Shown here piece by piece: positions 3,141 through 7,562 of a stretch of DNA of 64,000 nucleotides (the first letter of the stretch is position 1; each line of letters starts with the position of its first letter). The stretch comes from Rhodococcus sp. CH91 (GTDB lineage: Bacteria; Actinomycetota; Actinomycetes; Mycobacteriales; Mycobacteriaceae). Below the pieces are notes generated by a model that worked only from the letters and a program-made list of their open reading frames with translations, was not told the DNA's origin and did not search any database. The DNA lies in the NCBI RefSeq assembly GCF_022554085.1, contig NZ_JAKFYR010000010.1, positions 62,001 through 126,000 on the forward strand. Reading direction: 5' to 3'. A program made the translations under genes and the position numbers.

Positions 3141-4121
3141 TCAGCGCGGCCACGGCCAGCGGGCGTCGAGTTCGTCGCCCAGTCCCAGTGCTCCGCACAG
3201 CCGGCGGATCGCGGTGCAGTCCTGCACCACCGGCCGGTCCGCGGTCGCGGCGATCGTGTCGTCGACCAGTTCGGCGCGGCCGGGCACATCCTCGTGTTCG
3301 AGGATCGCCGCCCAGGTGCCGGTGTCGCTGCCGGTGAACGCCGCGACCGCCACGCCGAGCGCATCGAGCAAACGCACCCGGTCGGTGTCGTCGAGGTCGG
3401 TGAGCACCGCGGTGAGCAGCTCCCCGGCCAGCGAGGAGTGGCACAACTCGTCGCGGCGGTGCACCGCCACCGTCGCCCGGTGCACCGGTTGCAGCGCGGC
3501 GTCGCCGGTGAGCAACGCCAGATAGGCGCTGATCGAGGTCTCGGCGACGGTGGTGAACGCCAACTGCACCAGCGCCGCCGCCCGCGGATCGGCGGCGCGG
3601 GCCACGGCGAGGCGGTGTGCCCGCACGGTCGGGCAGGGCGGCAGCACCGTCTCGGGCAACGCCCAGCCGCGGCGGCGGCGGGTCAGCGCGTTCGCCTGCT
3701 GATGCATCAGGGTGTGGTACTGCTCGTCGACCATCGCCTGCAGCACCCCGGTGATCACGGTGTCGGACAGACCGAGCCCGAACACATCGGCGGTGATCAA
3801 CCCGAAGCCGGGGTTGACGACATACTGCTCGATGTCGACGACGCTCTTGTTGTAGGCGATCCACGCCCACGCCCGCAGCCGCGCCTGCCGGTCCTCGTCG
3901 AGCGCGAGGAAACGGCGATGCTCGGCGAAGGGCAGCATCGCCTCCGGGAAGTCGGTGCGGTGCGGTTCGAACAGCGCGTCGAGGTCGACCTCGGGTTTCT
4001 TGACCGCGGCGCGGCGCGGCCAGGACCGGGTCAGGCCCGCGATCACCGCGCTCTCGGCGGGATCGCCGGGGTCGTGGTCGGGTAGTGCGGGGGCGTGCAG
4101 GCGGCGCCGGTGATCGGTCAC
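3141..4121 (-). CDS. AurF/CmlI-like di-iron arylamine N-oxygenase
   Basis: A 326-residue protein with the ligand layout of the AurF/CmlI family, non-haem di-iron enzymes that oxidise aryl amines through hydroxylamine and nitroso to nitro groups. Seen: VVDIEQ (Glu), VDEQYHTLMHQ (Glu and His), VAETSIS (Glu) and HRRDELCH. In the last, His-x3-Glu-x2-His matches the spacing of AurF H223, E227 and H230. The GTG start at 4121 overlaps the upstream papC-like stop by four bases. As last gene of an operon that should make p-aminophenylalanine, its substrate is probably a p-amino-phenyl compound, either the free amino acid or a peptide-bound form as for CmlI. The substrate is inferred. Confidence 0.88.
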   Translation of the reverse strand: MTDHRRRLHAPALPDHDPGDPAESAVIAGLTRSWPRRAAVKKPEVDLDALFEPHRTDFPEAMLPFAEHRRFLALDEDRQARLRAWAWIAYNKSVVDIEQYVVNPGFGLITADVFGLGLSDTVITGVLQAMVDEQYHTLMHQQANALTRRRRGWALPETVLPPCPTVRAHRLAVARAADPRAAALVQLAFTTVAETSISAYLALLTGDAALQPVHRATVAVHRRDELCHSSLAGELLTAVLTDLDDTDRVRLLDALGVAVAAFTGSDTGTWAAILEHEDVPGRAELVDDTIAATADRPVVQDCTAIRRLCGALGLGDELDARWPWPR

Positions 4122-5038
4122 GGCCGGCTCCTGTCCTCGGCCGCGGCGCCGGGCGCGCCGTCGGGAAGCGGATGGGGAGGCAGCTGCGCGAACAGCTGCG
4201 CGCACAACTGCCGGGCGGGCGGGCCGCCCGCGCCGAGGGCGCGGCGCCCGCGGGCGAGGACGGCCGCGAATTCCGCGGGTGCGCCGACGGCGAGGTCGAG
4301 TTCGGTGACAGCCTCGGCGAGTGCCCGGCGTGCGGTCGCCGCATAGGGATTGGCGGCCTGGATGTCGTGATACACCTCGGCGGTGCCCGCGGTGAGCCGG
4401 GCGAGCAGCGCCCGCAGGGTGGTGTGCGGGGGTGGGGCGGTCGGTGCCGCCGCCGCGGGCGGGTCGAGCCGGTCCAGGGCGGCGCCGAACGCGAGGATCG
4501 TGGCGTGGGTCAGGGCCTGAGTGGCGGCCGTGATCCGATCGTGCTCGTCGGCGCCGGTCTCGACCACCTGCGCGCCCCAGCGGGTCAGGGCGGTGGCGAA
4601 GGCGGTGACGGCGGGGCCGTCGCAGTGCCGGATCAGCGCGACCGGCCGTGCCCGCCACCCCAGATCCGGCGCGAACATCGGGTTGATGCCGACGGCCGGC
4701 CGGCCCGGCCGGTGGGTGTGCACCGCGGCGGCGATGGGGGTCTTGACCGACAGGGTCTCCACGAGCAGCGTGTCCGGGGCGAGCACCGGCGCCAGCGTGG
4801 GCAGCGCGGCGACGGCGACGGGCTCCGGCACCGCCAGGATCACCGTGCCGGCGGCGCGCAGCGCGGTGGTGAGCGGCCCGGTGGGGGCGGTGATGTCGCC
4901 GCGCACCCGCGGGCCGCTGCTGTCCTCGACGCTGGGATCGACGACGAGCACCGATCTCCCGTCGGCGCGCAAGGCGTCGACGAGCAGGGAACCGACGGCA
5001 CCACCACCGCCGGCGACGAGCACCGGCGGTGCGGTCAC
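4118..5038 (-). CDS. papC: Prephenate/4-amino-4-deoxyprephenate dehydrogenase (PapC-type)
   Basis: A 306-residue TyrA-family protein. The N-terminal Rossmann segment reads VLVAGGGGAVGSLLVDAL. The dehydrogenase motifs LLVETLSVKT and GINPMFAPD follow, and the C-terminal helical half holds the dimer domain. In the papABC pathway this step oxidatively decarboxylates 4-amino-4-deoxyprephenate to p-aminophenylpyruvate, which an aminotransferase then converts to p-aminophenylalanine. GTG at 5038 is chosen because it overlaps the papA stop (GTGA) and directly precedes the Rossmann strand. Ordinary tyrosine biosynthesis is the alternative, but the coupling to ADC synthase and an N-oxygenase favours the amino pathway. 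Confidence 0.82.
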   Translation of the reverse strand: MTAPPVLVAGGGGAVGSLLVDALRADGRSVLVVDPSVEDSSGPRVRGDITAPTGPLTTALRAAGTVILAVPEPVAVAALPTLAPVLAPDTLLVETLSVKTPIAAAVHTHRPGRPAVGINPMFAPDLGWRARPVALIRHCDGPAVTAFATALTRWGAQVVETGADEHDRITAATQALTHATILAFGAALDRLDPPAAAAPTAPPPHTTLRALLARLTAGTAEVYHDIQAANPYAATARRALAEAVTELDLAVGAPAEFAAVLARGRRALGAGGPPARQLCAQLFAQLPPHPLPDGAPGAAAEDRSRP

Positions 5039-7170: not shown

Positions 7171-7178
7171 GACGGGCC

Positions 7179-7562
7179 TCAGTTCGGGCGGTGCGCGGTG
7201 TCGGATCCGGCCACGATCCGCTCCGCCGGGTCCGCCCCGGACACGATCCGGTCCTCGAGCCGGCACGCCTCGTCGATGAGCAGACCGTACAGGGAGCGGA
7301 CGAAGTCGCCGGAGATGCCGTGCCGCTGCGCGTAGTCCTGGGCGCGGCGGTGCACCACCTCCATGCGGCCGGGTTGCAGCACGTCGAGACCGTGGCGTTG
7401 TTTCAGTTCGGCGACCCGGGTGCACACCTCGAGGCGGGCACGCACGTCGTCGAGCAGCGCGCCGTCGATGGCGTCGAGTTCGGCACGCAGGTCGTCGAGT
7501 TCGGCGGCTGCCTGCGTCGACGCGGCGTCCGCCGCGGGGCTGGGACGGTCGGGCACGGGCAC
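7179..7562 (-). CDS. papB: Chorismate-mutase-type protein (PapB-like)
   Basis: A 127-residue AroQ-fold protein, first gene of the operon. The core LDDLRAELDAIDGALLDDVRARLEVCTRVAELKQRHGL has the catalytic pattern of small helical mutases (Arg, Lys, Asp-Glu helix). ICH-like second and third helices end in DEACRLEDRIV. In the PAPA pathway this member rearranges 4-amino-4-deoxychorismate to 4-amino-4-deoxyprephenate. An ordinary chorismate mutase cannot be told apart from sequence alone, so the specific call rests on the operon. GTG at 7562 is used; GTG at 7556 is an alternative. The 200 bases upstream should hold the operon promoter, but no convincing -35/-10 pair is visible. Confidence 0.78.
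   Translation of the reverse strand: MPVPDRPSPAADAASTQAAAELDDLRAELDAIDGALLDDVRARLEVCTRVAELKQRHGLDVLQPGRMEVVHRRAQDYAQRHGISGDFVRSLYGLLIDEACRLEDRIVSGADPAERIVAGSDTAHRPN

Follow-up and report, generated by a model that had tools for sequence, protein, structure and literature searches.

The biosynthesis of p-aminophenylalanine (PAPA) and the oxidation of aryl amines are known from a few bacterial systems. The chloramphenicol cluster of Streptomyces venezuelae contains the genes cmlB, cmlC, cmlD, cmlI, cmlP, and cmlA (PMC4249514). In the dnacin B1 cassette (dinV, dinE, and dinF), papABC homologues feed PAPA to a nonribosomal peptide synthetase (NRPS), while the transaminase lies outside the cluster; PAPA formation in E. 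coli by the din genes is reported, with transaminases contributed by the host (PMC7570522). Among rhodococci, humimycin A was made synthetically from the predicted product of the NRPS IupU of Rhodococcus equi and is given as Tyr-Ser-dTyr-Phe-dThr-Val-Val with a hydroxymyristoyl group (PMC12024397, PMC5550956). Here, we describe a window of 64,000 nucleotides from Rhodococcus sp. CH91 (contig NZ_JAKFYR010000010.1, positions 62,001 to 126,000), in which a four-gene operon, probably for PAPA synthesis, with a CmlI/AurF-like di-iron N-oxygenase, adjoins a six-module NRPS. The adjoining NRPS is the likely destination of the operon product, a connection that was absent from an earlier note on this DNA. 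On balance, we favor the reading that PAPA is loaded by this NRPS and is N-oxidized, probably to the nitro state.

Like the chloramphenicol cluster, the operon contains genes for a 4-amino-4-deoxychorismate (ADC) synthase, a probable ADC mutase, a probable aminodeoxyprephenate dehydrogenase, and a di-iron N-oxygenase. However, the oxygenase is only 40% identical and belongs to another clade, the genes form one compact operon, and the place of CmlP, which consists of adenylation, peptidyl carrier protein, and reductase domains, is taken by the NRPS with its terminal thioesterase (TE). The papABC genes are shared with the dnacin B1 cassette, in which PAPA leads to a quinone; the window operon has an N-oxygenase. 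AurF of aureothin biosynthesis belongs to the same Pfam family and has the same seven metal ligands as the window oxygenase, but the two are 34% identical and the window gene stands in a PAPA operon, not on a p-aminobenzoate route. The earlier note had described four tightly coupled genes for a mutase-type protein, an ADC synthase, a dehydrogenase-type protein, and an oxygenase. This observation is confirmed, including the coordinates and the minus strand (Table 1). Two of the three junctions (oxygenase/papC and papC/papA) are 4-nt overlaps, and the gap between papA and papB is 8 nt.

Table 1. Positions of the operon, the adjoining NRPS, and related features in the window
Feature	Position	Strand	Basis
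CmlI/AurF-like di-iron N-oxygenase gene, 326 aa, GTG start	3141..4121	-	PF11583 1.4e-46
papC, prephenate-dehydrogenase-type, probably 4-amino-4-deoxyprephenate dehydrogenase, 306 aa	4118..5038	-	PDH_N 7.6e-07
papA, fused glutaminase/ADC synthase, 711 aa	5035..7170	-	Pfam, TIGR00553, 8hx6
papB, AroQ-type, probably 4-amino-4-deoxychorismate mutase, 127 aa	7179..7562	-	CM_2 4.6e-17, TIGR01803
Perfect GC-rich inverted repeat with arms of 14 bp, located between rbpA and papB	7765..7797	-	Read from the sequence
Six-module NRPS, 7359 aa	9840..31919	+	Motif and pocket-code reading; kept beside the operon
Stretch with the A3 domain, code DAFFVAGIEK, preferred PAPA candidate	18225..19967	+	Glu at position 331

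A Pfam search matched the oxygenase to PF11583 (AurF) with 159.4 bits, against a gathering cut-off of 29.6; its score against the NCBIfam AurF model NF045603 was 171.4 bits, below the cut-off of 620. The best solved relative is 5hyg/5hyh (216.8 bits), an entry titled 'uncharacterized protein' that we take to be CmlI, and AurF scored 149.2 bits. The sequence identities are 40.4% to the 5hyg protein and 34.3% to AurF (3chh). In the alignment, the metal-ligand positions, which correspond to residues 101, 136, 139, 196, 223, 227, and 230 of AurF, read EEHEHEH in the window enzyme, 5hyg, and AurF. All seven are kept in each of the 81 aligned rows (the window and the 80 loci described below); the full AurF ligand pattern reported earlier is therefore borne out, with no ligand lost on proper alignment. 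The predicted structure is all-helical (predicted local distance difference test score, pLDDT, 78). A quick tree placed the window enzyme in a clade of 24 rows, solely from Rhodococcus, Rhodococcoides, Antrihabitans, and Gordonia (SH-like approximate likelihood-ratio support, SH-aLRT, 95), separate from 5hyg and AurF, which are on long branches and whose placement is therefore unsure. The enzyme would probably oxidize an aryl amine to the nitro group rather than stop at the hydroxylamine or nitroso stage or leave the amine unoxidized. The same genome contains two more AurF-family genes (G000:C38:171794-172618 and G000:C1:733037-733861). These outscore the operon enzyme on PF11583 (348 and 339 bits), but BLASTP gave no significant match between them and the window oxygenase, and they were set aside as having other functions.

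PapA matched the Pfam families GATase (4.1e-46), Anth_synt_I_N (2.6e-11), and Chorismate_bind (4.9e-89), and it carries the PIKGT motif that the earlier note had recognized in a fused ADC synthase. It exceeded the cut-off of the NCBIfam model TIGR00553 (pabB; 375.1 versus 328.4 bits), and its best solved relative by far is 8hx6, '4-amino-4-deoxychorismate synthase' (799 bits; runner-up 218). PapB scored slightly above the cut-off of TIGR01803 (CM-like; 76.5 versus 73.35 bits). A QPxR(M/V) motif is present in 17 of 17 aligned PapB rows. Chorismate mutases presumably have acidic residues at this site, touching the C4 group that differs in aminodeoxychorismate, and the motif is suggestive of an aminodeoxychorismate substrate. 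PapC is a divergent PDH_N protein that falls under the cut-off of every NCBIfam prephenate-dehydrogenase model listed.

Housekeeping counterparts of these enzymes are encoded elsewhere in the source genome (4.89 Mb in 39 contigs). Its five chorismate-binding genes are TrpE, PapA, the folate PabB, and two isochorismate synthases, and all except PapA exceed a curated cut-off; PabB is a separate gene on contig C31 (PRK05877, 614.8 versus 383 bits). Three CM_2 matches were found, one of them below the cut-off and another, also on C31, above the Pfam cut-off (42.2 versus 27 bits). There are two PDH_N matches, and the one outside the operon is a TyrA above its equivalog cut-off (456 versus 327 bits). 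PapA is thus distinct from the folate PabB of this genome, and the operon mutase and dehydrogenase are not the sole Phe/Tyr enzymes of the genome. With separate PabB, TrpE, TyrA, and CM_2 genes and intact di-iron ligands, the earlier interpretation of the genes as a chloramphenicol-like PAPA operon is supported.

The NRPS starts 2.3 kb from papB, and rbpA and two small genes lie between them. Its modules, composed of condensation (C), adenylation (A), thiolation (T), and epimerization (E) domains, are arranged as C-A1-T, C-A2(Ser)-T, C-A3-T, C-A4(Thr)-T-E, C-A5-T, and C-A6-T-TE. The pocket codes of A1 to A6 are DAFFTAAIVK, DVWHFSLVDK, DAFFVAGIEK, DFWNIGMVHK, DAFFAGGVMK, and DAFFLAAVMK; we take those of A2 and A4 to be Ser and Thr codes, respectively.

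To survey the locus in other bacteria, one genome per species was scanned. From the 110 oxygenase relatives obtained, the 80 best were retained, and the locus counts cover these 80. The nearest named record is that of Rhodococcus gordoniae (84% in the oxygenase). Sixty-two loci are of Rhodococcus type (Rhodococcus, Rhodococcoides, Prescottella, and Antrihabitans): the four genes are complete in 36, papC and the oxygenase occur with no papA near in 24, and two conform to neither pattern at the thresholds applied. Within the fetched flank (up to 10 kb), an NRPS was matched for 54 of the 62 loci and for 32 of the 36 four-gene loci. All four Gordonia loci have the four genes, and none has an NRPS match. 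At the level of genomes, a match to the starter-C domain (the first condensation domain, E<=1e-150) was found in 41 of 151 family genomes, and 39 of these 41 have the oxygenase (E<=1e-50), compared with 5 of the 110 genomes without such a match (hand count). The oxygenase and the starter-C match are on one contig within 45 kb in 25 of the 39.

The oxygenase occurs in 20 of 61 relatives overall. All but one of the 18 genomes in the genus of the window have it; the exception is 75% complete, and one of the other 17 has a frameshifted gene. In this genus, the order lnt-ppm1-operon-rbpA-NRPS is observed wherever the stretch is long enough to show it. The comparison of the operon across related genomes, which the earlier note had proposed as a check, gave one constant gene order wherever the loci reveal it. 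This constancy, together with the presence of the oxygenase in 17 of 18 genomes, indicates more than chance. The arrangement varies in other groups. The operon and the NRPS are directly divergent in a locus of another genus (L043), with no rbpA between them, and the NRPS lies between lnt and the oxygenase in Prescottella equi (L140 and L141). In R. fascians, a related NRPS accompanies papA and papB, which stay by rbpA; the genes for PapC and the oxygenase are near ribosomal-protein genes (identified by eye) and another NRPS.

The NRPS beside the operon in P. equi has seven modules in the order X1-Ser-X3-E-X4-Thr-E-X6-X7-TE, with a Ser code at module 2 and a Thr code at module 5. This architecture fits the sequence of humimycin A, whose NRPS is IupU of R. 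equi (for humimycin B, the source is R. erythropolis), and the NRPS of P. equi probably corresponds to IupU. In that case, the assignments of Tyr and Phe were made while a PAPA operon adjoined the gene. According to PMC5550956, humimycin-type clusters encode an amidohydrolase, an N-acyltransferase, and an MbtH protein, in some cases also a dehydrogenase, and the natural product might conceivably be modified further. The window locus likewise holds an Amidohydro_3 gene and an LNT_N gene, plus papC. Its NRPS has the Ser at position 2 in common with the humimycin type but has six modules with Thr4-E, lacks a counterpart of module 4, and carries no epimerase following module 3. A literature search, conducted mostly without subscription papers or the original humimycin paper, turned up no paper that associates PAPA or N-oxygenase genes with an NRPS of rhodococci.

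Module 3 is the preferred candidate for PAPA. Position 331 of this module was read from the raw sequence, as some rows of the alignment have gaps, and this reading recovered the A domains of the seven-module and other NRPSs only in part. The residue is Glu in 14 of 14 six-module NRPSs from operon-bearing genomes (including G011, in which the oxygenase is frameshifted). In the sole six-module NRPS found without the operon (G106), it is Ala; neither PapC (E<=1e-10) nor the oxygenase (E<=1e-50) was found in that genome. A carboxylate at this position could hold the aniline nitrogen.

We infer each reaction, the position of PAPA, the acyl group, and the final oxidation state as follows. PapA would convert chorismate into 4-amino-4-deoxychorismate, PapB would rearrange it into 4-amino-4-deoxyprephenate, and PapC would produce p-aminophenylpyruvate by oxidation and decarboxylation. 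A housekeeping aromatic transaminase would then give p-amino-L-phenylalanine, i.e., PAPA. One or more aromatic-type modules of the adjoining NRPS, preferably module 3, may load PAPA, which would give a peptide X1-Ser-X3-Thr-X5-X6, probably N-acylated and with an epimerized Thr. The CmlI-like enzyme would act on the aryl amine either while the residue is carrier-bound or within the peptide and would most likely oxidize it to the nitro group. We are highly confident that the operon makes PAPA and consider its use by the adjoining NRPS fairly probable; provided that it is so used, nitro is somewhat favored as the end state.

Several observations weigh against this pathway. No NRPS was matched in the fetched flank of the four Gordonia loci or of 4 of the 36 complete Rhodococcus-type operons, although the contig of L049, a locus without such a match, is short. 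Of the 39 genomes in which both occur, 14 have their best NRPS match on another contig or at a distance from the oxygenase. The E<=1e-150 line was drawn after the table had been seen, the genomes are related, and the counts of NRPS proximity are uncorrected for a background rate. The contrast between Glu and Ala in module 3 represents one loss, module 5 of G106 differs too, G106 retains a PapA-like gene that is distant (51%), and acidic residues are absent from these pockets in the seven-module NRPSs. Oxidation is not needed everywhere because G072 has papBAC and the NRPS with no oxygenase match at E<=1e-50, which suggests that some strains keep the unoxidized amine.

The loci without an NRPS in the flank would also be expected if the operon made free p-amino- or p-nitrophenylalanine, or another small nitroaryl compound, for separate use and the NRPS were a mere neighbor, and the presence of rbpA and two small genes between the operon and the NRPS points in the same direction. 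We consider this unlikely in view of the NRPS beside 54 of 62 loci, the co-occurrence in 39 of 41 versus 5 of 110 genomes, and a linkage that survives differing arrangements. It is improbable to a similar degree that PAPA enters the peptide but the oxygenase stops at the hydroxylamine or nitroso stage, for example to form a metal-binding or reactive group, or oxidizes only part of the product. The oxygenase is only 40% identical to the 5hyg protein and in a clade apart from 5hyg and AurF, which leaves room for such chemistry, yet it keeps all seven ligands of both nitro-forming enzymes. IupU, a probable relative of the NRPS, was early read as forming a siderophore (PMC2947987, PMC5550956), but its expression is not iron-controlled according to the latter article.

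A smaller chance is given to the explanation that the NRPS uses unoxidized PAPA while the substrate of the oxygenase is a different aryl amine, for example p-aminobenzoate. The gene content of G072 agrees with it, and so do 7 of the 10 Streptomyces loci and one of the 4 Nocardia loci, which have a papA-like gene but no papC match, as p-aminobenzoate use predicts. In the window, however, the oxygenase gene overlaps papC, and 24 of the 62 Rhodococcus-type loci keep the oxygenase with papC although papA is not near. We regard it as very improbable that the genes are spare Phe/Tyr or folate enzymes with no specialized product: PapA, PapB, and PapC each belong to a superfamily of housekeeping enzymes, but the PabB, TrpE, TyrA, and CM_2 genes are separate and the four operon genes, that of an N-oxygenase among them, travel together.

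Some further features of the window and of the other loci were noted. The inverted repeat between rbpA and papB may mark the end of the rbpA transcript; it has no U-run and was not reported by a terminator scan. No promoter was found in a scan of positions 2950-9900, and cotranscription of the operon with rbpA was considered as one possibility. Downstream of the NRPS, positions 31957-43048 on the plus strand contain genes for a P450, a small ferredoxin-like open reading frame, and a ferredoxin reductase, followed by phosphotriesterase-like, FAD-monooxygenase, alpha/beta-hydrolase, and S15-peptidase genes, and the region looks like a catabolic island. The first three (31957-34540) run into the phosphotriesterase-like and FAD-monooxygenase genes. 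They were set aside as tailoring genes because they follow the NRPS in only 6 of 11 genomes of the same genus; matches were found in G006, G004, G001, G016, G008, and G011 and not in G032, G026, G106, or P. equi.

At locus L045 (G011:C1:2382012-2382967), in a one-contig genome, the oxygenase gene is split into two overlapping frames, while papA, papB, papC, and the NRPS match at full length; the split is due to either decay or sequencing error. The operon of Rhodococcus globerulus (L145 with L172) adjoins another type of NRPS, in which several modules have Ser codes and one has DALFVGAVVK, the code of module 1 in the P. equi NRPS, and this enzyme is a possible second PAPA user. The Gordonia loci L091, L105, L106, and L122 have complete papB-papA-papC-oxygenase sets with no NRPS match within 10 kb, and L091 is near genes that read by eye as ScpA/ScpB, cmk, and der. 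In Streptomyces loci L103, L104, L108, L110, L117, L123, and L124 and in Nocardia locus L113, the oxygenase relative adjoins a fused papA-like gene; a papC match is present in none of the 14 Streptomyces and Nocardia loci. Those with the papA-like gene may be nitrobenzoate-type clusters.

The gene logic of the operon is known from chloramphenicol, whereas its repeated association with a large family of orphan NRPSs and a possible correction of the humimycin structure are new. Few nitroaryl natural products are known; nonetheless, the oxygenase is present in nearly all genomes of the genus and is common in its relatives. The operon is a likely source of a building block that was missing for a conserved orphan NRPS. 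Because a PAPA pocket may read as Tyr or Phe, a peptide designed solely from A-domain predictions could deviate from the one made in nature. We tentatively propose, at a little under even odds, that the NRPS family from which humimycins were predicted naturally yields acyl peptides with p-amino- or p-nitrophenylalanine at the predicted Tyr/Phe positions, that Rhodococcus and its kin share unisolated nitroaryl or aminoaryl lipopeptides, and that Glu331 is part of the PAPA pocket code in the six-module branch. The search for the real product becomes direct, as p-aminophenyl or p-nitrophenyl residues can be sought. Strains that carry the operon, strains that lack the oxygenase, and strains that lack the operon together make up a natural series from which the PAPA code of A domains may be learned.

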